Shown here one piece after another: positions 1,106 to 15,171 of a stretch of 64,000 nt of DNA. Both the position numbers and the translations under genes were made by a program. The stretch's first letter is position 1. Every line of letters starts with the position of its first letter. The DNA is taken from the NCBI RefSeq assembly GCF_018390605.1, contig NZ_JAHBGD010000005.1, forward strand, positions 682,001-746,000. The letters are read 5' to 3'. Under the pieces are notes generated by a model. That model had not been told where the DNA came from, ran no database searches, and saw only the letters and a program-made list of their open reading frames with translations. Origin of the DNA: Ancylobacter defluvii (GTDB lineage Bacteria; Pseudomonadota; Alphaproteobacteria; Rhizobiales; Xanthobacteraceae).

Positions 1106-2137
1106 ATGCCCACGAAGCTCATCGTCGCCGTCTTCGCCACCCTCATGATCACCCCGGCCAGCGCCGAGACCATCACGCTGCGCGTGCTCGGCCAGCCCTC
1201 GGGTTCCGGCCTCATCGCCCAGCAGAAGGAGCGGCCCTTCTTCGAGAAACTCGCCGAGAAGACCGGCCTTGACGTCAAGGTCGAGTATCTCCCCGTCGAC
1301 GTCGCCGGCATCCCGGACACGGACGGGCTGCGCATCCTGAAATCCGGCCTGTTCGACATCGTCTCGATCCGCGGGCCGCAGGTAAGCCGCGACGAACCCT
1401 CCGTGCTCGGGCTCGACCTCGTGGGCCTCAACACCAGCTATGTCGCCGGCAAGCAGCATATCGCCGCCTTCCAGCCCTTCGTCGACAGCCGGCTTCAGAC
1501 CCAGTTCAATGCCAAGCTGCTCGGCGTCTGGCCCGCGGGCCCACAGGTCATCTTCTGCAAGCCGGAAGTAACCGGCCTTGCCGATCTTAAGGGCCTCAAG
1601 GTCCGCGTCGGCGACCAGAGCGCGGCGAACTTCGTCGCCAAGCTGGGCGCCACGGGCATTTCGATGCCCTTCGGCGAGGTCCAGCAGTCGCTGGCGCGCG
1701 GGGTGGTCGATTGCGCCATCACCGGCCCGGCCTCGGCCAATTCCGGCGGCTGGCCGGAAGCCACCACGACCGTGCTGCCGATCGCGCTGCAACTCGCGGT
1801 GAATGGCTACGCCGTCAACCAGAACAGCCTGAAGAAGTTCACGCCCGATCAGCAGGCCAAGCTGACCGCCGCCATCGCCGAGTTGACCACCGACATCTGG
1901 GCCTTCTCCGAAGAGCTGTACGAGGATGCGATGCGCTGCAACACCGGCGCGACCCCGTGCAATCGCGGCGTGTCGTACAAGCTGAAGGAGGCCCCTGCGT
2001 CCGAGGCCGACCTCAAGGCCGTGGCGGGCGCTGTCAGTGACGTCTCGCTGCCGATCTGGGCCAAGCAGTGCAACGCGGTCGCCCCGGCATGCGAGCAGAG
2101 CTGGCGGACCACCGTCGGCGCCCAGCTCGGCCTCTGA
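1106..2137 (+). CDS. dctP: TRAP transporter substrate-binding protein (DctP family)
   Basis: This is the periplasmic solute receptor of a TRAP transporter, 343 residues. The first ~20 residues are a cleavable Sec signal ending in PASA-ET. The DctP fold is recognisable from the internal LADLKGLKVRVGDQSAANFVAKLGA segment (family pattern 'l.dlkGlk.Rv') and the following GEVQQSLARGVVDCAITGP stretch. The start is set at 1106 because the signal peptide begins there; an in-frame ATG at 953 would add 51 residues of non-signal sequence and lies inside operator O2. It is the first gene of a dctP-dctQ-dctM-racemase operon. The ligand is probably a carboxylate but cannot be read from sequence. Two cysteine pairs in the C-terminal third suggest disulfides. 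Confidence 0.88.
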   Translation: MPTKLIVAVFATLMITPASAETITLRVLGQPSGSGLIAQQKERPFFEKLAEKTGLDVKVEYLPVDVAGIPDTDGLRILKSGLFDIVSIRGPQVSRDEPSVLGLDLVGLNTSYVAGKQHIAAFQPFVDSRLQTQFNAKLLGVWPAGPQVIFCKPEVTGLADLKGLKVRVGDQSAANFVAKLGATGISMPFGEVQQSLARGVVDCAITGPASANSGGWPEATTTVLPIALQLAVNGYAVNQNSLKKFTPDQQAKLTAAIAELTTDIWAFSEELYEDAMRCNTGATPCNRGVSYKLKEAPASEADLKAVAGAVSDVSLPIWAKQCNAVAPACEQSWRTTVGAQLGL

Positions 2138-2163
2138 TCCGCCCTGAGGAGCAGGAGCCAGCC

Positions 2164-2745
2164 ATGAAAACCTATTCGCGCTTTCTCGGCGTCCTTTTCG
2201 GGGCGCTGATGATCCTTCTGTCGGTGGCCATCACAGTGGAGACGCTGCTGCGCAAGTTGTTCTCCGTCTCGCTCGGCGGCGTCGACGAACTCGGCGGCTA
2301 TGCCATCGCGATCGCCGCTCCGCTCGCCTTCACCGTCGCGCTGGTGGAGAACGCCCATATCCGCATCAACCAGCTCACCACGCTTTTTCCGAAGCCCGTG
2401 CAGGCGGTTCTGGATGCGGTGTCGGTGGCCTCGATGGCGGTGCTCGCCGGCTATTTCTTCTACTTTACTGTCGACACGGTGATCGACACGTTCGAATACC
2501 AGTCCATCGCACCGACGCCCTGGGCGACACCGCTGATCTATCCGCAGACCGTCTGGCTGATAGCCAGCGCCACCTTTCCGATCGCCGCGCTCATACTTGC
2601 CGCACAGGCCCTGCGCCTGCTGGCGCTCGGTGACCTGCGGTCGTTGATGCGTCGCTTCGGCCCCGTCTCCCCGGAGGAGGAGCTTAAGGCCGAGCTCGAC
2701 GACCTCAAGCGGCGCGAAGCGCTGATTCACGAAGGAGCCCGGTGA
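2164..2745 (+). CDS. dctQ: TRAP transporter small permease (DctQ family)
   Basis: The small membrane subunit of the TRAP transporter, 193 residues. It has four hydrophobic segments (around residues 8-28, 45-62, 80-105 and 130-160) and the family-typical loops LGGVDELGGYAIAIAAPLAFTV and VENAHIRINQL. It joins the large permease in an inner-membrane complex that receives substrate from the DctP protein and uses a sodium gradient. The ATG at 2164 has GAGGAGCAGGAG upstream as ribosome binding site. The C-terminus is hydrophilic and helical (EEELKAELDDLKRREALI). Its stop codon overlaps the next start (TGATG). Confidence 0.87.
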   Translation: MKTYSRFLGVLFGALMILLSVAITVETLLRKLFSVSLGGVDELGGYAIAIAAPLAFTVALVENAHIRINQLTTLFPKPVQAVLDAVSVASMAVLAGYFFYFTVDTVIDTFEYQSIAPTPWATPLIYPQTVWLIASATFPIAALILAAQALRLLALGDLRSLMRRFGPVSPEEELKAELDDLKRREALIHEGAR

Positions 2746-4049
2746 TGAGCATCGCTATCGTTGGACTTGGCTTCTCGGTCATGCTGCTGCTGATGTTCCT
2801 CAGCATCCCCGTGGCCGTCACCATCATCGCCGTCGGCGCCTATGGCGGCTACTTGATGTACGGCATGCCGCTCGTCGACATGATGGGCGGGGTGATCTGG
2901 TCGAGCGTCAACAGCCCGGCCATTCTCGCCATCCCGCTCTTCATGCTGCTCGGCGAATTGCTGCTGCGGGGCGGCATAGCGGACCGCATGTATGACGCGA
3001 TGGCGGTGTGGCTGGCGCGCCTGCCGGGCGGGCTGCTGCACACCAATATCGCGACCTGCGCACTTTTCTCGGCAACGTCCGGCTCGTCGGTCGCGACCGC
3101 GGCGACGGTCGGTACCATCGCCCTGCCGGCACTCCAGCAATACAAATATCCGATGTCGCCCGCGCTGGGGTCTCTGGCGGCGGGGGGTACGCTCGGCATT
3201 CTCATTCCGCCGAGCGTGAACCTGCTGGTCTACGGTTCGCTGGCCAATACCTCGGTCGGCCAGCTCTTCGCCGGTGGTGTGATTCCGGGCATCCTGCTGG
3301 CGCTGTCCTTCTCGCTCTACATCTTTATTTTCCACGGCAAGGCCGGCGCGCAGGCGACCGAGTTGATCGACATGCCGCTGCGCGACAAGCTCGTGCTTGG
3401 CAAATACCTCGTCCCGCCGATGGTGATCTTCGGAGTGGTGATGGGGTCGATCTATGGCGGGCTGGCGACCCCTACGGAATCGGCGGCCATCGGCGTGATC
3501 ATGGCGCTCGGCTTCGTCGCCTTGAACCGCCGGCTGACGCCGGATCTGCTGATCGAATGCTCGATCCAGGCCGCCAAGACCAGCGGCATGGTCATCATCG
3601 TGCTGGTGTGCTCGCTGTTGCTGAACGTCACCATCTCGATGACAGGCGCGGCGCAGACCATGACCCAGTGGATCGCCGCCTTCGACCTCAGCCAGTTCTC
3701 GCTGCTGCTGGTGTTGCTGCTGTTCTACGTGTTGCTCGGCACGTTCATGGACGCGATGTCGATGCTGGTATTGACGGTTCCGATCGTCATTCCGGTTGTC
3801 GCCGCCGCGGGGATAGATCCGGTCTGGTTTGGCATCTTCATCGTGCTCATGTGCGAGATCGCCCTGATCACCCCACCCGTGGGCATGAACCTGTTCGTGG
3901 TCCACGGCGTGCGCACCGATGGCGGCAGCTATTCGGATGTGACGCGGGGTTCGTGGCCCTATGTCTTCGTCATGATGATTTTCACCCTGCTACTGATGGT
4001 GTTTCCGCAACTGGTGATGTGGTTGCCCGACATGCTGGCGGGTCGATAA
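2745..4049 (+). CDS. dctM: TRAP transporter large permease (DctM family)
   Basis: The large transport subunit, 434 residues with about 12 hydrophobic segments. It has the DctM signatures: AILAIPLFMLLGELLLRGG near residue 60, the glycine/serine-rich FSATSGSSVATAATVG loop near 105, LAAGGTLGILIPPS near 145 and the C-terminal ITPPVGMNLFVV. The ATG at 2745 shares its A with the preceding TGA, so translation is coupled; a GTG one codon earlier is possible. It ends in TAATG, overlapping the racemase-like gene. Confidence 0.9.
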   Translation: MSIAIVGLGFSVMLLLMFLSIPVAVTIIAVGAYGGYLMYGMPLVDMMGGVIWSSVNSPAILAIPLFMLLGELLLRGGIADRMYDAMAVWLARLPGGLLHTNIATCALFSATSGSSVATAATVGTIALPALQQYKYPMSPALGSLAAGGTLGILIPPSVNLLVYGSLANTSVGQLFAGGVIPGILLALSFSLYIFIFHGKAGAQATELIDMPLRDKLVLGKYLVPPMVIFGVVMGSIYGGLATPTESAAIGVIMALGFVALNRRLTPDLLIECSIQAAKTSGMVIIVLVCSLLLNVTISMTGAAQTMTQWIAAFDLSQFSLLLVLLLFYVLLGTFMDAMSMLVLTVPIVIPVVAAAGIDPVWFGIFIVLMCEIALITPPVGMNLFVVHGVRTDGGSYSDVTRGSWPYVFVMMIFTLLLMVFPQLVMWLPDMLAGR

Positions 4050-6081: not shown

Positions 6082-7671
6082 TCAAAATCCCATCGCGGCA
6101 CCGTCGCTTCGCGGATCTCCCGCACCTTCAAGCCGGCCATCCCCATGGCGGGCAATGGCGCCTGCATGTCCCATCATCGCGTCGAACGGCGCGACGATTT
6201 CCACATCGTGTCCCGCCGAACGCAGGGCCGCGACGAGTTCCGGCGTGAACCGATCCTCAAGCTTCAGGGATACCGTCTCCGCGCCCCATGTACGTCCGAG
6301 CAGCCAGCGCGGGGAGGTTATCGCGGCCTGAAGCTCCTCGCCGAAGAACGCATAGCGCGAGAACAGTGCGGCCTGTGTCTGTGGCTGGCCCTCACCGCCC
6401 ATGGTGCCATAGACCATGTGGCGACCATCATTGAAGGAGGCCATGGCGGGGTTCAGCGTATGGAAAGGCCTGCGGCCGGGCGCCAGTACACGCGGTCCGC
6501 TACCGCTGAGCAGGAAGCTGGAGCCGCGATTCTGCCAGACGATGCCGGTCTGCGGCAGCACGACGCCGGAACCGAACTCGAAATAGATGCTCTGGATGAA
6601 GCTGGTCGCCAGTCCGTCGCCATCGATGGCGCCGAGCCATACGGTGTCACCGGCGGAAGGCGGCGCGGGCCAGGGCAGGGCGGACTCTCGGTCGATCTGC
6701 GCCGCGAGGCGATCGAGCGCCGCATCGGTGAGCCAGTCCGCCGGTTTCTCTGTCATGGCGTCGGGGTCGCCGATGATGCGGTCGCGCACGAGGAACGCCT
6801 GCTTCGTCGCCTCAACCAACCCATGGACATGATCGAAGCCTTCCGCTTCGGTCACGCCGAGTCGGCGGAACAAGGCGAGGATCATCAGCGAGGAAAGGCC
6901 CTGCGTCGGTGGCGGAAAATTGAACAGCCGCATGCCGGGAAGGTCGACCGACAGAGGGGCGACGCGACGGGCTCGGCAGGCGGAGAGATCGTCCAACGTC
7001 ACCGGCGTACCGGCCCGTGCGAGATCGTCGGCGATCTCGCGGGCCAGCGCGCCGCGATAGAAGCTCTCGGTGCCCTCGACGCCGAGACGATGCAGCGTCT
7101 CGCCCAGTGCCGGCAGCTTCATCACCGAGCCTGTGGCCGGCGCCTCGCCGTCGACGAGGAAGCTGGCGGCGAATCCCGACACGTCGGCGAGTTCGGGCAT
7201 CTTTTGCGTGGTGAGTTCGTTCTGGCTGCGGGCAACGGCGAAGCCGTTGCCCGCATGCCAGACCGCATCTTCGAGAAGCCGCGCGAGCGTTAGCCGGCCG
7301 CCGCGCTTGCCGCTCACCGCCAGCGCCTCGCCCCAGCCTGCCACGGTGGCTGCCGTCGTGTTGGCGGCGAGCGGTCCGCGCTGGGGAATGGTGGTCAGCC
7401 CGGCCCGGAGATAGAGCTCCGGCGTTGCGGCGGCCGCCGCACGGCTGCAGGCGTCGATACCGACGGGCGTCTCGCCGGGCGCGCCGATCAGCCAGAAGCC
7501 GTCGCCGCCTATGGCGGTCATGTGCGGATAGACCACGGCCAGCGTTGCCGCCATTGCGACCGTGGCCTCGACCGCATTTCCGCCCTCGCGCAGGACGCGC
7601 AGCCCGGCCTCACTGGCGAGATGGTGCGGGGACGTCACCATGCCACGACGGGCACGAACGGTGTTCAACAT
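6082..7671 (-). CDS. Gamma-glutamyltransferase family protein, no signal peptide
   Basis: A 529-residue Ntn-hydrolase of the gamma-glutamyltransferase/YwrD type, expected to self-cleave and to hydrolyse or transfer gamma-glutamyl groups, or related amides. The N-terminus (MVTSPHHLASEAGLRVLREGGNAVEATVAMAA) is the classical GGT opening without a secretion signal, so it is predicted cytoplasmic. The nucleophile threonine is retained in GDTVWLGAIDGDG, aligning with TTHYSVVD of E. coli Ggt, although the second Thr and the His are Val and Trp. RRPFHTLNPAM and the final DPRSDG match the substrate-binding and C-terminal blocks. It is last in the dctP-dctQ-dctM-ggt operon, 15 bp after dctM, so it probably processes the imported compound. 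Confidence 0.87.
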   Translation of the reverse strand: MLNTVRARRGMVTSPHHLASEAGLRVLREGGNAVEATVAMAATLAVVYPHMTAIGGDGFWLIGAPGETPVGIDACSRAAAAATPELYLRAGLTTIPQRGPLAANTTAATVAGWGEALAVSGKRGGRLTLARLLEDAVWHAGNGFAVARSQNELTTQKMPELADVSGFAASFLVDGEAPATGSVMKLPALGETLHRLGVEGTESFYRGALAREIADDLARAGTPVTLDDLSACRARRVAPLSVDLPGMRLFNFPPPTQGLSSLMILALFRRLGVTEAEGFDHVHGLVEATKQAFLVRDRIIGDPDAMTEKPADWLTDAALDRLAAQIDRESALPWPAPPSAGDTVWLGAIDGDGLATSFIQSIYFEFGSGVVLPQTGIVWQNRGSSFLLSGSGPRVLAPGRRPFHTLNPAMASFNDGRHMVYGTMGGEGQPQTQAALFSRYAFFGEELQAAITSPRWLLGRTWGAETVSLKLEDRFTPELVAALRSAGHDVEIVAPFDAMMGHAGAIARHGDGRLEGAGDPRSDGAAMGF

Positions 7672-7686
7672 GCGACTGTACTCCGA

Positions 7687-9012
7687 CTACCAGCCGATCG
7701 CCTTCGGCAGCCAGGTCGCCACCGCCGGGAACGTGAACACCAGCGCCACCGCCGCGAGTTGCAGCACGATGAAGGGAATGACGCCGCGATAAATATCGGC
7801 GGTCGCCACCTCGGGAGGAGCCACTCCGCGCAGATAGAACAGCGCCCAGCCGAAGGGCGGCGTCAGGAACGAGGTCTGGAGCACAGTGGCGATCAGCGCG
7901 GCCGCCCAGACGAGATCGACACCGGCCGCCTGCATCAGCGGCAGGAACATCGGCACGACGATGTAGCTGATTTCGATCCACTCGATGAAGAAGCCGAGCA
8001 CGAAGATGATCAGCAGCATGAAGATGAGGATGCCGTCCGTGCCACCCGGCACGAAAGCGAAGGCGTCGTGCACCAGCCGCTCGCCGCCGAGACCGCGGAA
8101 GGCCAGCGCGAACACCTGCGAGCAGATCAGCACGAAAAACATCATCGCGGTGATGCGCGCGGTGGACTGCACGGTGTCGACCAGAGTCTTCCAGGTGAAG
8201 CGCCCGGCGATGGAGGCGACGAGGATCGAGCCGAGCGCGCCCATGCTGGCGGCTTCGGTCGGCGCGGCAATGCCGCCGATGATCGAGCCGAGCACCACAA
8301 GCACAAGCCCGACGGGCGGAAGGCCGACCTTAAGCGCCTTCATCCAGAGTTCGCGGCGCGGCATGGCACGGCGTTCTTCCAGCGGAATGGCAGGCACCTT
8401 CTCGGGCGAGATGATGCCGACCACGATCATGTAGATGCAGAAGATGACGGTAAGCAGCAGGCCGGGCATCAGGGCGGCGGCGAACAGCGTGCCGACCGAT
8501 TCGCCGAGAATATCCGCCAGCAGGATCAGGATCGTGCTCGGCGGGATGAGCTGGCCGAGCGTTCCCGACGCGCAGATCGCGCCGCAGGACAGGCTCTTGT
8601 CATAGCCGCGGCGCAGCAGCGTCGGCAGGGTCAGCAGGCCGAGCGTGACGATGGTGGCACCGACGATACCGGTGGTGGCGCCCATCAGCATGCCGACCAG
8701 CACGATTCCAAGCCCCATGCCGCCGCGCAATCCGCCCGACAGATGGCCGATCACTTCCATCAGTTCGTCGGCGAGGCGTGATTTCTCAAGCATCACGCCC
8801 ATGAACACGAAGAGCGGGATGGCGATCAGCGTGTAATTTGCGGTGACGCCATAGATGCGGGCGGGCAGCAGGCCGAACAGGCTGGTGCCGAAGCCGAGCC
8901 AGCCGAAGAAGAAGCCGCTGATCGCGAGGGTAAGCGCCACCGGCACGCCGATGAACAGCATGACGAAGAACGACGCGATGCACGCGATCGCCAGGATTTC
9001 GTTATAGGGCAT
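7687..9012 (-). CDS. dctM: TRAP transporter large permease (DctM family), second system
   Basis: The 441-residue large membrane subunit of a second TRAP transporter. Hydrophobic segments run through the whole length. Signatures are PLFVFMGVMLEKSRLADELM, GATTGIVGATIVTLGLLTLP, GTLGQLIPPSTILI and FLTPPFGWALFYLRGVAP. The long insert and FIEWIEISYIVVPMFLPLM resemble the FcbT3/YiaN-like branch with a large fourth block. It overlaps the small permease gene by 11 bp. It should form a sodium-coupled importer with the DctQ and DctP proteins upstream. It is not a recent copy of the 2745-4049 gene. Confidence 0.9.
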   Translation of the reverse strand: MPYNEILAIACIASFFVMLFIGVPVALTLAISGFFFGWLGFGTSLFGLLPARIYGVTANYTLIAIPLFVFMGVMLEKSRLADELMEVIGHLSGGLRGGMGLGIVLVGMLMGATTGIVGATIVTLGLLTLPTLLRRGYDKSLSCGAICASGTLGQLIPPSTILILLADILGESVGTLFAAALMPGLLLTVIFCIYMIVVGIISPEKVPAIPLEERRAMPRRELWMKALKVGLPPVGLVLVVLGSIIGGIAAPTEAASMGALGSILVASIAGRFTWKTLVDTVQSTARITAMMFFVLICSQVFALAFRGLGGERLVHDAFAFVPGGTDGILIFMLLIIFVLGFFIEWIEISYIVVPMFLPLMQAAGVDLVWAAALIATVLQTSFLTPPFGWALFYLRGVAPPEVATADIYRGVIPFIVLQLAAVALVFTFPAVATWLPKAIGW

Positions 9013-9547
9013 CGGGCGTCACTCGTGCGGAAGGTTCGCCCTTGCCGCCAAGAAAGGGCTGGATCGCGCGCAGCGTCGCGGCGAGGCTCTGAAGCAGCAG
9101 CAGCATGAAGCCGGCCGGGATCATCGCCTTGAGGATGAAGCGGTAAGGCAGGCCGCCGGGGTCGGGCGAGCCTTCGCCGATCCGGTAGGATTGCATCATG
9201 TAGGGCCAGGAAAGCCGGACGATGATGACCGCCAGCGCCACCACGGCCAGAGCCGAGAAGAGGTCGATGATGTTTCGCACGCCAGCGGGGAAGCGGGCAT
9301 AGACGATGTCTACCCGCACATGGCCTTCATGCTTGATCGTATAGGCGATGCACAGCAGCGTGAGCGGCGACATCAGGTGCCACTCCAGCTCCTGCATCGC
9401 GACCGAGCCGGTGTGGAACAGATAGCGCAGCAGTACATTGCCGGCCATGACGAGGACGAGCGCGAAGCCCGTCCACGCCGCGACCCAGCCGCACACCTCG
9501 ACGATCGCATCGAGGCGTGCGGCCCATTTTTCCAGTGTGGCGGCCAT
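9002..9547 (-). CDS. dctQ: TRAP transporter small permease (DctQ family), second system
   Basis: A 181-residue small permease with four hydrophobic stretches. The motif MQELEWHLMSPLTLLCIAYTIKHEGHVRVDIVY is the DctQ core, the dicarboxylate/2-oxoacid TRAP version of 'v.e.....lf...f.G.a....g.HvrvD'. It begins 2 bp after the dctP stop and overlaps the large permease by 11 bp, so the three transport genes are translationally coupled. Confidence 0.87.
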   Translation of the reverse strand: MAATLEKWAARLDAIVEVCGWVAAWTGFALVLVMAGNVLLRYLFHTGSVAMQELEWHLMSPLTLLCIAYTIKHEGHVRVDIVYARFPAGVRNIIDLFSALAVVALAVIIVRLSWPYMMQSYRIGEGSPDPGGLPYRFILKAMIPAGFMLLLLQSLAATLRAIQPFLGGKGEPSARVTPDAL

Positions 9548-9549
9548 GA

Positions 9550-10638
9550 TCAGGTGCGAATCTGGGTCTGGTATACCGCTTCAGACAGGCCGGCCCACTG
9601 ACTGTGCTTGGCTGCGAAGTCCGTGAAGCTGTCATAGACTGTCTTCACCTTCGGATCGGCCGCCGCCATGTCGGCCAGCGTCTTCTTGGTGATCTCCCGC
9701 AGCTTTTCCACCACCGGCGCCGGCAGCGGCCCGGCAATGACACCCTGATTCTTGACGAGATCGGTCATCGCCTCGCCATTGGTCGCCTCGCACCAAGTGT
9801 GGCTCAGCACATTGCAGGCAGCGGCGGCGGCACGCACGATTTCCTTGAGGTCGTCCGGCAGGCTGTCCCAGGCGACCTTGTTCACCACAAGTTCGGTAAC
9901 GTTGTTCGGTTCGTGCCAGCCAGTGGTGTAATAATACTTCGCCGCCTTCTGCAGGCCGAGGCGACGATCCTGATAGGGGCCGACGAACTCGGCCGCGTCG
10001 ATCACGCCGCGCTCCAGCGCCGGGAAGATTTCGCCACCGGGCAGCAGCTTCACGTCGACGCCGAGTTGGGCGTAGACCTTTCCGGCGAGGCCGGGGATGC
10101 GCATCTTCAGGCCCTTGAAGTCCTCGACCTTCTCGATCGGCTTGCGGAACCAGCCGGACATCTGCACACCGGTATTGCCGAGCGGCATGGGCACGAGATT
10201 GAAGGGCTCGTACAGGTCTTCCCAGAGCTTGAGGCCGCCGCCGTGATAGATCCAGGCGTTCTGGCCTTGGAAATTGAGGCCGAAGGGCACGCAGGTGAAG
10301 AACTGCGCGGCCGGCACCTTGCCGGCCCAGAAATAGGAGTTCGCCGCGTTCATCTCGACAGTACCGGAGGAGACGGCGTCGAAGCCTTCCAGCGCCGGGA
10401 TCAGTTCGCCGGCGGCGAAATGCTGGATGTTGAGCCGCCCGCCCGACATCTTGCCGACCAGTTCGCAGAAATAGGTCGGGCTGCCGGGGCCAGCCACATA
10501 GAAGGGCGCACCGGGGCCATAGGCATTGGTCATCTTCCAGTTGAACGTCTGCTGCGCCCGGGCCACGTGTGGCGCGGCGATGGTGGCGACAGCCGCCGTG
10601 CCGGCAAGGCCGGCTCCAAGAAATCCACGACGATCCAT
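9550..10638 (-). CDS. dctP: TRAP transporter substrate-binding protein (DctP/TakP-like), second system
   Basis: A 362-residue periplasmic receptor and first gene of the second TRAP operon. The N-terminus MDRRGFLGAGLAGTAAVAT...HVARA is a twin-arginine signal ending in ARA-QQ. The mature part has GPGAPFYVAGPG, the DctP helix VEDFKGLKMRIPGLAGKVYAQLG and GVIDAAEFVGPYQDRRLGLQKAAKYYY, typical of the TakP/2-oxoacid and lactate-type subfamily. The start at 10638 is chosen because GAGGGATCGAA lies just upstream; an in-frame start at 10734 would add 32 residues before the Tat motif. It is divergent from the AraC-amidase gene. Confidence 0.88.
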   Translation of the reverse strand: MDRRGFLGAGLAGTAAVATIAAPHVARAQQTFNWKMTNAYGPGAPFYVAGPGSPTYFCELVGKMSGGRLNIQHFAAGELIPALEGFDAVSSGTVEMNAANSYFWAGKVPAAQFFTCVPFGLNFQGQNAWIYHGGGLKLWEDLYEPFNLVPMPLGNTGVQMSGWFRKPIEKVEDFKGLKMRIPGLAGKVYAQLGVDVKLLPGGEIFPALERGVIDAAEFVGPYQDRRLGLQKAAKYYYTTGWHEPNNVTELVVNKVAWDSLPDDLKEIVRAAAAACNVLSHTWCEATNGEAMTDLVKNQGVIAGPLPAPVVEKLREITKKTLADMAAADPKVKTVYDSFTDFAAKHSQWAGLSEAVYQTQIRT

Positions 10639-10709: not shown

Positions 10710-10724
10710 TGCCGCAGTGCGGCA
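10710..10724. promoter_or_regulatory. Inverted repeat TGCCGCA-G-TGCGGCA in a divergent promoter region
   Basis: Seven-base arms are perfectly symmetric about one base in the 278-bp space between dctP (minus) and the AraC-amidase gene (plus). A second, weaker pair (TGCC...GGCA) follows at about 10726-10742. It could be an operator for either operon. AraC proteins usually bind direct repeats, so the binder is uncertain. Confidence 0.35.
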
Positions 10725-10916
10725 ATGCCTCCAAAAGGGCAGTCGAGCAGAAGAACGAATGAAAAAGAGAAGATAATTCGGAGATTTAATTATAAAATTC
10801 AATTGGTTGATCGATTTTGCCGTGGAATAGGGCAACGCAGCGGTTCTGGCGCGAGACAAGTTTTTGTGCGCCAATCGTCAAAGGGCTTCGCGGCCCACAT
10901 CGCTAGCCTCCTGTTG

Positions 10917-13256
10917 ATGAAGATCCAAGCCATGAGCCGAACTGTTCCCGTCTCGATCAACGCCTTTCCCGCAAGCAAGCAGGAAGCCGCGTGGCGCGAG
11001 ACGCTTGCCACGCTTTCGCTCGTCGACCAGTGGCCGAAGGATGTCGCGTTTCATTTCGGCGAGATTTCCATCAAGCGCTCGCCGACGCTCGCCACGCTCG
11101 CTCTGTTGCGCTCGACGGCGCAGGGCCTGAAGACCCATGTCGCCGATGCCGACTGCGTTCTCGTCGGTTTCGTGCATTATGGACGCGGTCATCTCACCGA
11201 TACGGGCCGGCGCGCATTTGAATTCGCGGATGGCGATCTGTGGGTCTGCGACCCGCTGGCCTCGGGCACCATTCAGTTTCGGAATGATTTCGAGTTGCTG
11301 CTGCTGCAGGTGCCGCGAGAAAGGCTGGCCGGGCGTATTGGCCGGGGTGCGGGCGTGCCGACCATCGTGCTTGGTGAATCCGTTTCGGCCGCCGCCGCGC
11401 GGCCGATGATGCGGGCATTGGCTGCTAATTTCGCGATGATGGAGCATGGCGACCTTATCGCCGCCGAGACGGCGATAACCGAACTGGTGCTGTCGGCGCT
11501 ACTGGCCGAGGCGCGCCCGGAGGAAGACAACGCTACCCAGGTGCAGGTCGCCCATCTCGCCCGCGTCTGCGCGCAGATCGAAGCACGCCTGTGCGAACCG
11601 GAGCTTTCGGTCGCCGACATCGCGAAGGCGGAGGGACTGTCGCCGCGCTATGTGCAGCGCCTGTTCGAAGGGCAGGACCGCGCTTTCTCCGACTATGTGC
11701 GCCACCGCCGGCTGGAGCATTGCCGGCTGGATCTGATCAACCCGCAATACGCCGACCGCAGCATCGCCGAGATCGGCTATCGCTGGGGGTTTACCGATCA
11801 GGCGCATTTCAGCCGTGTGTTCAGCGCGGCCTATGGCATCTCGCCACGCGAGTTCCGCAAGTCGAGCAGCGGCTCGGTGGAAACGCGCTGGACCCGTGGC
11901 CGGCCGGTTCATAGCGGCGTCCGGCCCCAGCGGCCGGCGCTTTCTGCCTCACCCGCACCGAGCGAGGCGGAGAGTGCCCCGCCGGCGATCCCCGTCACGC
12001 CGGCGCCTCCCGAACCCGGCCGCCACCATCTTCCGGTCTCGCGCGAGACGGTGCATTGGGGCTTTCTCAGCCGCTCCATTCCCCCAGTGCTGCGGGTGCG
12101 CTCCGGCGCGGTCATCACCGTGGAGACGCTTACCCAGCACGCCTATGACGACCATGAGCGGATGATAAAGGGCGATGCCGGCGCCGAGAGCGTGTTCCGC
12201 TGGAGTAGGGACTACAAGGCGGTCGATCGGCGCGGGGCCGGGCCGATGAATGCCAGCATCTTCGGGCGCGGCGCCGGCGAGGGGTTCGGCGTGCATATCT
12301 GCACCGGGCCGATCTTCGTTCATGGTGCCGAACCGGGCGACGTGCTGGAGGTCCAGATCCTCGACCTCAAGCCGCGCCCCTGCGCCAATCCGGCCTATGA
12401 GGGGCAGGCCTTTGGCAGCAATGCCGCCTCCGCCTGGGGCTTTCACCATGACGACCTGCTGGACGAGCCGCGCAAGCGCGAGGTCGTCACCATCTATCGC
12501 ACCGACGCGGCCGGAGAGAGCGGCTACGCCGAGGCCGTCTATTCCTTCCGCTGGGCGCCGCAGACCGATCCGTTCGGTGTGGTGCATGAGACGATCGACT
12601 ATCCCGGCATCCCGGTCGACCACGCGAAGCTGGTCGAGCGTCACGGCGTGCTGAACGGCGTGCGCGTCCCCGTACGCCCGCATTTCGGGTTCATCGCCGT
12701 GGCGCCGCGTGAAACCGACATCGTCGATTCCGTGCCTCCCGGCTATTTCGGCGGCAACATTGACAATTGGAGGGCCGGCAAGGGCTCATCGACCTATCTT
12801 CCGGTGACCGTGCCGGGGGCGCTCCTCTCGCTCGGCGACCCGCATCTGGCGCAGGGCGACGGCGAGATCAGCGGTACGGCGCTGGAATGCTCGCTGACCG
12901 GAGAGATTCGTCTGGTGCTGCACAAGCGGGGCGAAACGGAAAAGCTCTTTCTCAACGGGCTCAACGCCCCGCTGATCGAGACCGAAGACGCCTGGTTGCT
13001 GCACGGCTTCAGCTATACGAACTATCTGCGCGAACTTGGCCGCAACGCGCAATCCGAGGTGTTCAAGCGCTCGTCGCTGAGCCGGGCGCTGCGGAGCGCC
13101 ATGCGCGAGACCCGTAAATTCCTGATGGGGCACTATGGCCTCGATGAGGACGAGGCCATCTCGCTGATGTCGGTGGCGGTCGATTTCGGCGTGACGCAAG
13201 TCGCCGACGGCAATTGGGGCGTCCACGCAAAGGTCAATAAGGGCATCTTTCCCTAG
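10917..13256 (+). CDS. AraC-family regulator fused to acetamidase/formamidase
   Basis: One uninterrupted reading frame of about 779 residues with two complete parts. Residues ~40-200 resemble the AraC-binding-like sensor domain. Residues ~224-318 are an AraC DNA-binding domain with both HTH motifs (LSVADIAKAEGLSPRYVQRLF; RSIAEIGYRWGFTDQAHFSRVF...GISPREFR). A Pro/Ala-rich linker (~320-372) leads to residues ~374-779, a full-length acetamidase/formamidase (FmdA/AmdA) domain opening with SRETVHWGFLSRSIPP and containing GPIFVHGAEPGDVLEVQILD and PHFGFIAVAP. The enzyme would release ammonia from formamide, acetamide or a related small amide. Start candidates are ATGs at 10917 and 10932; neither has a strong Shine-Dalgarno. 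It is divergent from the TRAP-GGT operon, which it may regulate. Confidence 0.85.
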   Translation: MKIQAMSRTVPVSINAFPASKQEAAWRETLATLSLVDQWPKDVAFHFGEISIKRSPTLATLALLRSTAQGLKTHVADADCVLVGFVHYGRGHLTDTGRRAFEFADGDLWVCDPLASGTIQFRNDFELLLLQVPRERLAGRIGRGAGVPTIVLGESVSAAAARPMMRALAANFAMMEHGDLIAAETAITELVLSALLAEARPEEDNATQVQVAHLARVCAQIEARLCEPELSVADIAKAEGLSPRYVQRLFEGQDRAFSDYVRHRRLEHCRLDLINPQYADRSIAEIGYRWGFTDQAHFSRVFSAAYGISPREFRKSSSGSVETRWTRGRPVHSGVRPQRPALSASPAPSEAESAPPAIPVTPAPPEPGRHHLPVSRETVHWGFLSRSIPPVLRVRSGAVITVETLTQHAYDDHERMIKGDAGAESVFRWSRDYKAVDRRGAGPMNASIFGRGAGEGFGVHICTGPIFVHGAEPGDVLEVQILDLKPRPCANPAYEGQAFGSNAASAWGFHHDDLLDEPRKREVVTIYRTDAAGESGYAEAVYSFRWAPQTDPFGVVHETIDYPGIPVDHAKLVERHGVLNGVRVPVRPHFGFIAVAPRETDIVDSVPPGYFGGNIDNWRAGKGSSTYLPVTVPGALLSLGDPHLAQGDGEISGTALECSLTGEIRLVLHKRGETEKLFLNGLNAPLIETEDAWLLHGFSYTNYLRELGRNAQSEVFKRSSLSRALRSAMRETRKFLMGHYGLDEDEAISLMSVAVDFGVTQVADGNWGVHAKVNKGIFP

Positions 13257-13746
13257 AGATTCGCGGGTTCGCTTGCGGTTCACCGGAAGCGGACATTCGA
13301 GATGTCGCTTAGGGGGCCTCATCCGTCATGGGGCTATGGCGAGCACATGGTTCTTTTCCTGGTCGCTCGCGGACCGCCATTAATTATTTGAATTCACTTA
13401 TATAAAATGAACGCTGCCGGATGCGCTGCCGACGGCGGACGCGGCTGGCTGTGCGGGCTCACGCCATTCGACGGCCATTTCCGCGGCAGTCGCCCGGAAG
13501 GGCGTGGAGCGACGCCCGGTGGCGCTGACGATCACCGCCTCCGGGGATGAGGCGGACAGCGCCAGGATGATGACCGGGACCGGCGAGCGGCGAGCGCGCG
13601 ACGCCGCCATCCGCGGGGTGTTCGCCATTTTCCCCGGCACCGGCGCCGGTACCGGAACGGGTTTCAACCCCGGCATTGTTCCGGTGAATCGGCTATGTCG
13701 GAACGTGGTCGAGATCGGCCGTGAGGTTGCGAGGGAGAGAGGGGAC
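13257..13746. other. 490-bp intergenic region, no gene recognised
   Basis: An AT-rich segment at about 13378-13411 (TTAATTATTTGAATTC, then TTATATAAAA) stands out in otherwise GC-rich sequence and is the best promoter candidate for the FAD oxidase downstream. Open frames exist on both strands between 13398 and 13805, but they show no family match that I trust and overlap the start of the next gene. Confidence 0.4.
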
Positions 13747-15171
13747 ATGTCCGACGAGATGCTGAACAGCCTGCGCGACGCGCTTGGCGACGCCGGCGTG
13801 CTCACCGATCCCGAGCGGCTCGCGACCTATCTGGTCGATCAGCGCGATCTGGTGAAGGGCCGCACCCCGGCCGTGCTGCGTCCCGCGACCACCGAGCAGG
13901 TGATGGCGATCATGCGCCTCGCCACCCGGCACCGTGTCGGCATCGTGCCGCAGGCCGGCAATACCAGCTATTGTGCCGGCGCGACGCCGGACCGTTCGGG
14001 CACCCAGTTCGTGCTCAGCCTCGAGCGCCTCGACAAGATCCGCTCGGTCGATCCGCTCGACGCCGCGCTGTCGGTCGATTCCGGCGTCATCCTCAAGCAC
14101 GCGCAGGAGGCGGCCGAAAGGGCAGGGCTGTTCCTGCCGCTGAGCCTCGGCTCGGAGGGAAGCTGCCGCATCGGCGGCGTCATCGGCACCAATGCCGGCG
14201 GCCTTTCGGTGCTGCGCTACGGCATGACGCGCGACCTGGTCCTCGGCCTGGAGATCGTGCTGCCGGACGGCACGCTGGTCTCGGACATGAAGAGGCTGCG
14301 CAAGAACAATACCGGCTACGACATCAGGCAAAACTTCATCGGCGCCGAAGGCACGCTCGGTGTCGTCACCGGGGCGGTGCTCAAGCTCATTCCCACGCCG
14401 AGCCGCCGGGCGACCGCGTGGATCGAACTGGCGCCGGACGTGCCGCTGCCGGACATGCTGGCGCTGGTGCGCCGCGAGACCAGCGAGCTGGTCTCGTCCT
14501 TCGAGTTCATCACCGCGCGTTCGCTGGCGCTGGTGAGGGATCCGGGCGGACGCCTCAAGAGCGGCAGCGGCGGCGTCATCCTCATCGAGCTGTCATCCTC
14601 CTCCCGGCACCTGCCGATCGACGAGGTGCTGGAAGGTACCATGGGCGAGGTGGTGGAGAAGGGGTGGGCCGAGGACATCATTATCGCGCAGACCGAGGCC
14701 CAGCGGGCGGATATGTGGCAGATCCGCGAGACCATCCCCGAGGGCGAGAAGCGGGCCGGCGGTTCGGTGAAGCACGACATTTCCGTGCCGTTCAGCCGGA
14801 CGGTGGATTTCCTGAAACAGGGCGGCGCCGCCGTGGCCGCCTATGACCCGCGCCTCGAATTGTCGGTCTACGGCCATGTCGGCGACGGCAATCTCCACTA
14901 CAACATCATGGTGCCCGCCGGCGAAGAGCGCCTCGCCTTCACCGATCGGATCGGCCGAGAACTGGCGCCGACGCTGTACGACATCGCGGCGGAGATGGGC
15001 GGCACCTTCAGTGCCGAGCATGGCGTTGGACGGTTCAAGCGGGCGCTGTTGCAGCACTATGCCGATCCCGGCCGCTACCGTGTGCTGCGCGGCATCAAGG
15101 GGCTGTTCGATCCGCACGGCGTCATGAACCCCGGCGCCATGGTGGATCCCGCGGAAGGGTTGCCGTCCTAG
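13747..15171 (+). CDS. FAD-linked oxidase (glycolate oxidase GlcD / D-2-hydroxyacid dehydrogenase type)
   Basis: A 474-residue flavoprotein of the VAO/PCMH superfamily, probably oxidising a D-2-hydroxyacid such as glycolate, D-lactate or D-2-hydroxyglutarate. The FAD-binding domain (~1-220) has RPATTEQVMAIMRLATRHRVGIVPQAGNTSYCAGA, SLGSEGSCRIGGVIGTNAGG and RKNNTGYDIRQNFIGAEGTLGVVT. The C-terminal cap contains GHVGDGNLHYNIMVP and FSAEHGVGRFKR, with the His residues that hold the substrate or metal in this family. The ATG at 13747 follows GAGGGAGAGAGGGGAC. It is a monocistronic-looking gene followed by a strong hairpin. Its exact substrate is not visible. Confidence 0.88.
   Translation: MSDEMLNSLRDALGDAGVLTDPERLATYLVDQRDLVKGRTPAVLRPATTEQVMAIMRLATRHRVGIVPQAGNTSYCAGATPDRSGTQFVLSLERLDKIRSVDPLDAALSVDSGVILKHAQEAAERAGLFLPLSLGSEGSCRIGGVIGTNAGGLSVLRYGMTRDLVLGLEIVLPDGTLVSDMKRLRKNNTGYDIRQNFIGAEGTLGVVTGAVLKLIPTPSRRATAWIELAPDVPLPDMLALVRRETSELVSSFEFITARSLALVRDPGGRLKSGSGGVILIELSSSSRHLPIDEVLEGTMGEVVEKGWAEDIIIAQTEAQRADMWQIRETIPEGEKRAGGSVKHDISVPFSRTVDFLKQGGAAVAAYDPRLELSVYGHVGDGNLHYNIMVPAGEERLAFTDRIGRELAPTLYDIAAEMGGTFSAEHGVGRFKRALLQHYADPGRYRVLRGIKGLFDPHGVMNPGAMVDPAEGLPS

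Follow-up and report, generated by a model that had tools for sequence, protein, structure and literature searches.

Why should a transcriptional regulator carry a whole amidase-family domain at its C-terminus, and what could that domain do there? The question is raised by one gene in the 64,000-nucleotide stretch of the 5.28 Mb Ancylobacter defluvii genome analyzed here (assembly GCF_018390605.1, contig NZ_JAHBGD010000005.1, positions 682,001 to 746,000 of the forward strand; hereafter the window, whose own coordinates are used throughout). Positions 10917-13256 of the forward strand form a single open frame of 779 codons plus stop, with zero internal stops, which joins an AraC-type regulator to an acetamidase/formamidase (FmdA/AmdA)-family domain. 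We propose that its product is probably an intact, enzyme-derived one-component regulator of amide use, whose amidase-family domain became attached to the C-terminus of an AraC protein, probably in a single event, and has been kept as a second sensor.

Architecture and spread of the fused frame

Pfam recognized three domains along the frame, each above its cut-off. The regulatory half comprises a cupin-like, N-terminal AraC_binding_2 domain (PF14525, residues 67-196, positions 11115-11504, 32.2 bits against a cut-off of 27) and an AraC-type double helix-turn-helix (HTH), HTH_18 (PF12833, residues 235-315, positions 11619-11861, 70.9 bits against 33.6), and the rest of the protein is an acetamidase/formamidase-family domain (PF03069, FmdA_AmdA, residues 368-779, positions 12018-13253, 97.1 bits against 27), all read from the forward strand. 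The amidase domain aligned over its full length with the solved structure 3b9t (E 2.3e-169), and Foldseek matched the predicted model of this domain to 3b9t (TM-score by target 0.92) and that of both AraC domains to the AraC-like protein CuxR (5nla, TM-score by target 0.58). Judged by profile and model, the protein belongs to AraC/XylS through its C-terminal double HTH and to FmdA/AmdA through the curated profile score and the full fold. The fusion scored 61.2 bits against the formamidase FmdA equivalog (NCBIfam NF045496), below the cut-off of 500, and by its sequence the amidase domain is of a type other than that equivalog.

An AlphaFold2 model built on 34 fused sequences (that of the window and 33 of the 80 named loci introduced below) reached a mean predicted local distance difference test score (pLDDT) of 79.5 and a predicted TM-score (pTM) of 0.58, with two mostly well-formed halves whose placement in space relative to each other is not usable. 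Residues 318-364 (positions 11868-12008), a Pro/Ala-rich stretch between the halves, fell below a pLDDT of 50 and are predicted to form a loose, disordered linker; segments 440-457 and 507-510 of the amidase domain likewise fell below 50. Within the linker, an RGxP motif (R327, G328 and P330; residues 327-330, positions 11895-11906) was invariant across the 34 aligned sequences, and the remaining linker was unconserved. An AT-hook, suggested by the RGRP-like form of this motif, was unsupported since its third residue varies, with RGRP in 63 of 96 fused rows, GRP only in 5 and neither in 28 (many of these RGWP); the conserved RGxP remains. The second ATG (residue 6) may be the true start of the fusion, because alignments with close relatives begin at residues 1-6 and those with distant relatives mostly at 10-16. 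The sequence-only reading had described a continuous frame running from an AraC domain through a Pro/Ala linker into a full-length amidase, and the frame, the Pfam matches, the 3b9t alignment and the pLDDT profile bear this description out.

A frame of this kind could also be produced by an assembly or sequencing error that deleted a stop between two genes. However, a scan of 30 genomes of the genus found the window's orthologue in 20, each time as a single frame with zero stops (own copy 100%, others 81-91% identical), and the same single frame recurred in distant genera, which refutes the artefact; we give it next to no credence. The loss of a stop in the linker and the splitting of all close homologues, both named beforehand as ways in which the fused reading might fail, are excluded by the open frame in all 20 genus orthologues and in 105 of 108 fused rows, and by fused copies inside and outside the genus. 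Some fused member, of any group, occurred in 28 of the 30 genus genomes, with G003 and G023 giving no match at E 1e-60; some fusions of a second group within the genus matched only from about residue 104-118 onward.

Across the class the spread was patchy, with a full-length fusion at E 1e-60 in 2 of 289 genomes (the window's own and G100) when the three best candidates per genome were scored. A scan of named genomes returned 162 relatives, of which the best 80 loci were kept, nearly all of them aligning from residue 16 or earlier to residue 778. Hosts among these best 80 of 162 were mainly alpha- and betaproteobacteria, including Ancylobacter, Bradyrhizobium, Rhizobium, Devosia, Novosphingobium, Parvibaculum, Variovorax, Rubrivivax, Thiomonas and others, and plasmids also carry the fusion (10 records in which a single location covers at least 80% of the query). 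At least 342 open residues preceded the amidase match in 105 of the 108 fused rows, a set that includes near-copies from different collections; rows were dropped when the match covered fewer than 330 residues of the amidase domain or the sequence was identical to another, as was L008, a copy of L002. The exceptions were L088 and L117, whose records start inside the gene, and L116, with 208 open residues. At the otherwise typical locus of L116 (Bradyrhizobium pachyrhizi), the break in the frame lies ahead of the amidase part and reflects either an assembly fault or a decaying gene.

Origin and conservation of the amidase domain

In a tree of 139 amidase domains (of 164 rows, those at least 95% identical to a kept row or shorter than 300 residues having been removed), all 81 fused rows fell on one side of one branch with a support of 98, and a single fusion event therefore probably lies behind this old family; the tree was made by a quick method, has several long branches and is rooted for drawing only. 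Free-standing amidases adjoining the fused group were 54-62% identical to the window's domain, and a second kind of free-standing partner, distant in the tree, was 37-40% identical to it.

The tree also bears on a reading in which AraC_binding_2 alone senses and the amidase is a working enzyme, co-expressed by virtue of the fusion and with no say in DNA binding. Such a tethered bifunctional protein would suit an N-terminal half that is a complete AraC regulator on its own, with a CuxR-like fold, and a linker that is long and disordered. However, no free-standing protein fell inside the fused group, an absence toward which the gathering of loci with the fused protein as query is biased, and a separate amidase gene is usually present (see below). 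We regard a mere tether as unlikely.

Because the FmdA/AmdA active site could not be assigned from any paper (the accessible part of PMC10781810 gives no residues for this fold), we describe polar residues as invariant positions and not as catalytic residues. Eighteen polar positions were invariant in all 67 free-standing rows, and 14 of these were kept in all 96 fused rows, including H460, D475, N614, D616, D641, H643, D648, E650, E657 and E688. Changes among the 96 were confined to N502 (8 rows), K670 (18), T760 (15) and D764 (20), nearly all of them outside the window's own group (group A, whose shared neighborhood is described below). In the 22 rows of that group, 17 of the 18 positions were kept throughout and the eighteenth, K670, was kept in 21. 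A dead sensor, or pseudo-enzyme, is unsupported for the window's group, as these 17 positions are intact in every row. Median ratios of nonsynonymous to synonymous substitution (dN/dS) within group A were 0.120 for the amidase part and 0.166 for the AraC part (105 pairs, 15 sequences), pointing to purifying selection on both halves of the fusion.

This retention of invariant positions under strong purifying selection favors a stronger form of our proposal, a true trigger enzyme in which the fused amidase turns over its substrate and DNA binding follows the catalytic state, as in PutA and BirA. However, the fused domains differ from their free-standing relatives at more than the four positions above. 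The two nearer free-standing sets (63 rows) share 37 invariant polar positions; 25 of these are unchanged in every fused row, and 30 are preserved in at least 95% of fused rows. In place of the Y628 of free-standing relatives, all 96 fused domains have L, and 77 of 96, including all 22 of the window's group, have Q instead of H407. Three residues mark the fused group, F457 (95/96), F611 (95/96) and L628 (96/96), at positions where the nearer free-standing set has mostly L/V/Q, T and Y and the farther set P, H and Y, respectively; F611 is also present in 3b9t and in 3 of 38 nearer free-standing rows. F457 and F611 each stand three residues ahead of an invariant residue (H460 and N614, respectively), and we infer that positions 457 and 611 lie close to the pocket in space. 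Conservation of the free-standing partner also exceeded that of the fused domain in 135 of 136 Rhizobiales pairs, 79 of 91 sphingomonad pairs and 7 of 10 Parvibaculum pairs, though in only 9 of 36 Burkholderiales pairs (45 loci in four chosen sets, with partial matches dropped). Taken with the separate enzyme present at most other loci, these differences make a trigger enzyme a possibility that we hold to be rather improbable.

The fused domain, in which most invariant polar positions are kept and some are changed, may still hydrolyze amides, and sensing could proceed by binding or by turnover. The sequence-only reading had proposed a single-protein sensor-enzyme. Its union of regulator and amidase in one protein stands, and an amidase domain that informs DNA binding is suggested by sequence and context; the control by amide turnover that it also supposed is hypothetical.

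Neighboring genes and a candidate operator

The fusion is divergent from an operon on the reverse strand that encodes a tripartite ATP-independent periplasmic (TRAP) transporter solute-binding protein of the DctP family (9550-10638, PF03480, 183 bits), the TRAP small and large membrane subunits (9002-9547 and 7687-9012, two open frames named from sequence and position) and a protein of the gamma-glutamyltransferase (GGT) superfamily (6082-7671, PF01019). Thirteen of the best 80 named loci are of the window's kind, and in 13 of 13 the fusion is divergent from the three TRAP genes and a GGT-superfamily gene; we refer to these as group A.

The GGT-superfamily protein scored 305.4 bits against the gamma-glutamyltransferase equivalog TIGR00066, below the cut-off of 357.85, and its nearest solved relative was 5hft (284 and 272 bits for the two chains, versus 175 for 2e0w, which we take to be E. 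coli GGT). The structure listing labels 5hft merely Gamma-glutamyltranspeptidase; we take it to be Klebsiella HpxW, an oxamate amidohydrolase, and a structural paper on it was not found in our open literature search, which covered titles and abstract openings and had most subscription journals outside its reach. The small subunit aligned gap-free with 5hft_B over 187 of 187 residues and begins with Thr, as the rule for the N-terminal residue of this subunit leads one to expect of an N-terminal nucleophile (Ntn) hydrolase. Given the score below the TIGR00066 cut-off and the closer match to 5hft than to standard GGT, we rejected gamma-glutamyl chemistry as the default, and on these comparisons we class its product as an Ntn amidohydrolase resembling 5hft, not as a standard gamma-glutamyltransferase. 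If the presumed HpxW identity holds, the TRAP operon again pairs an amide-splitting enzyme with an importer.

Orthologues of this gene (81-87% identical, own copy 100%) were found in all 20 genus genomes with the window's fusion, at a distance of a few kb, and in none of the other 10; more distant relatives occurred in all 30. A link with the divergent TRAP-GGT operon pointed out in the sequence-only reading is supported, and the gamma-glutamyl chemistry implied by the operon's name is not.

A second amidase was absent from the DNA examined at all 13 group-A loci with 5-kb flanks; with no FmdA-type paralogue alongside, the fused domain could therefore be a working enzyme ahead of the HpxW-like one, a point in favor of the trigger enzyme. 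At the non-group-A loci, a second FmdA/AmdA match lay nearby in 59 of 67, in divergent, convergent or tandem orientation; among these 59, the amidase of L110 is only 30% alike and those of L089 and L100 are cut by the record end. The distance to the fusion was less than 200 bp in L065, L067, L071, L073, L074, L083 and L110. For the second group of fusions within the genus, a free-standing amidase stood alongside in 20 of 20 genomes. With a separate amidase gene so often at hand, the enzymatic role of the fused copy would often be superfluous, which counts against the tethered reading.

Upstream of the fusion, an alignment of 14 regions (the window and 13 named relatives) revealed a nearly invariant block inside a fast-changing spacer. 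Its operator-like core, AAGTTTTTGTGCGCCnnTCGTCAA (10858-10881, forward strand), contains CAAG and CAAA repeats 22 bp apart and lies 36-59 bp ahead of the fusion ATG; a spacing of two helical turns would fit an AraC-type direct repeat. The core was present as a single copy in its own genome at up to 3 mismatches and, at up to 2 mismatches, once per genome in 20 of 20 genus genomes with the orthologue and in 0 of 10 without it, with reversed controls at zero in both searches; the pattern used in the genus test was derived from the group-A alignment. The same 20 of 30 genus genomes hold all three of the fusion, this dedicated operator-like repeat and the orthologue of the GGT-superfamily gene, and the remaining 10 hold none of them.

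A related motif, CAAG-N3-TTG-N2-CG-N8-CAA, stood upstream of the fusion in 16 of 19 loci from other Rhizobiales families. It scored 11 or 12 of 12 in these 16 and 9 in L052, L063 and L081, compared to 12 of 12 in 0 of 400 control segments and 11 of 12 in 4 of 400; the motif was composed after its alignment had been viewed, so its score is partly circular. Some 36 bp upstream of the operator, a third half-site can be seen most clearly in L044, L045 and L047; it is degenerate in the window and uncounted. A second conserved intergenic element, GGCAATGCC...GGGCA (10721-10741), lies nearer the TRAP operon and is shared by most group-A relatives in the upstream alignment.

Fusions in other lineages recurrently neighbor an amino-acid ATP-binding cassette (ABC) transporter and RidA. 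On plasmid p2 of Caballeronia zhejiangensis (L119), genes for a nitrile hydratase, a GTP-binding protein, a free-standing amidase and an amino-acid ABC transporter are divergent from the fusion, and by its gene content this locus is likely a nitrile/amide catabolic island. In Parvibaculum (L080, positions 1598-3606 of that locus), Rieske ring-hydroxylating oxygenase genes and a LigB-type gene precede the free-standing amidase, and in Novosphingobium (L094, 3670-4875) a Rieske ring-hydroxylating oxygenase lies between the free-standing amidase and the fusion; the substrate at these two loci may be aromatic or N-methylated. Thiomonas loci carry a GGT-superfamily gene 56% identical to that of the window, in L082 behind a major facilitator superfamily transporter. 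As candidate ligands we considered formamide, acetamide, oxamate, amino-acid amides and nitrile-derived amides, and chose none, as neighbors differ between lineages; for formamide and acetamide, which the sequence-only reading named for a binding assay, the observations point neither way. Downstream of the fusion, the window encodes a GlcD-like FAD oxidase (13504-15171). Because the 5-kb flanks of the 13 named group-A loci contained no relative of this oxidase, it probably lies outside the fusion unit.

Proposed working and known systems

The working set out here is one that we infer, including the contact with DNA, the sensing role of the amidase domain, the way in which control runs and the kind of ligand. 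The AraC part would bind the direct repeats around 10857-10900 in the intergenic region. The TRAP system would import an amide-like compound, and this compound or its product would bind in the amidase domain, whose ancestor would have been an enzyme in a pathway of this sort and which would supply specificity. Ligand binding would then change the dimer arrangement and switch the divergent TRAP-amidohydrolase operon and probably the fusion's own gene, with bulk hydrolysis left to a neighboring enzyme, namely the free-standing amidases in other lineages and the HpxW-like enzyme in the window's group.

Several observations weigh against this working. AraC_binding_2 could be the sole sensor, with a tethered amidase domain that works simply as an enzyme. 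The short-flank group-A locus L020 has a 30% amidase match just downstream, and a second amidase was absent from the DNA examined in 8 of the 67 non-group-A loci (L075, L088, L091, L099, L101, L104, L113 and L117, among which L088 and L117 are short records). The core lies 220-243 bp from the TRAP start (10638) versus 36-59 bp from the fusion ATG, and the repeat may serve mainly autoregulation of the fusion. The GTTTTTGTGCG part of the repeat, searched at up to 1 mismatch, was absent ahead of Burkholderiales and sphingomonad fusions, with the sole exception of L104, where it lies on the opposite strand about 220 bp upstream. Finally, the loci are related by descent, and counts across them are not independent.

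A more daring version of the enzyme-derived regulator would see here an unnamed proteobacterial family (AraC_binding_2, AraC HTH, FmdA/AmdA) with a catalytically live sensor, in which slow turnover of the amide that the neighboring enzyme consumes sets how long induction lasts. The same regulator lineage pairs with at least three partner kinds, two kinds of FmdA-type amidase and an HpxW-like Ntn hydrolase, and on this account the regulator would gauge flux and not concentration alone. We hold this version to be doubtful.

The proposed regulator can be set beside several known systems. MocR/GabR regulators (PMC5320631) also fuse an enzyme-derived effector domain to a DNA-binding domain, control genes of related metabolism and use repeat operators; they combine a GntR HTH with an aminotransferase-like domain, whereas here an AraC protein with AraC_binding_2 is joined to an FmdA/AmdA fold. 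Pfam found an AraC HTH and FmdA_AmdA and no pyridoxal phosphate-binding domain in the fusion, which can only resemble MocR in its working, by analogy, and not in membership. The trigger enzymes PutA and BirA (PMC6978683) unite enzymatic and transcription-regulating roles in one protein; in the fusion, however, an enzyme fold has been added to a complete AraC regulator, and its activity is putative. Among solved proteins, 3b9t, an acetamidase/formamidase-family protein from Methylobacillus flagellatus, is the nearest to the amidase domain along its full extent and has the same fold, but it is unfused and was deposited as a twin-arginine translocation (Tat)-signal protein, whereas the domain of the fusion comes after a DNA-binding half and is expected in the cytoplasm. 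FeaR, an AraC-type regulator without an amidase domain, gave the top-scoring NCBIfam model for the AraC part (NF007243), although at 123.8 bits the fusion falls under that equivalog's cut-off of 199. Ada (NCBIfam NF011964) likewise couples an AraC HTH to an enzyme within one polypeptide, but that enzyme is an unrelated methyltransferase and the match is weak and limited to the HTH (19.8 bits, cut-off 345).

Our open literature search, with the reach given above, returned no description of an AraC-amidase fusion or of an acetamidase-derived sensor. An AraC-type regulator adjoining an amidase of the amidase-signature family is described in PMC11573777, the accessible part of which makes no mention of a fusion. 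Enzyme-derived sensor domains are already known for aminotransferases, in MocR/GabR. How an enzyme becomes a sensor, with or without losing catalysis, is now testable in harmless soil bacteria that carry this family, because free-standing relatives adjoin most non-group-A loci and a likely operator is defined. The fusion would also offer a handle on the substrates of this amidase subfamily and on amide biosensors. In public annotation only one half of the protein appears, as either "acetamidase/formamidase family protein" or "AraC family transcriptional regulator", and the architecture described here corrects such names.

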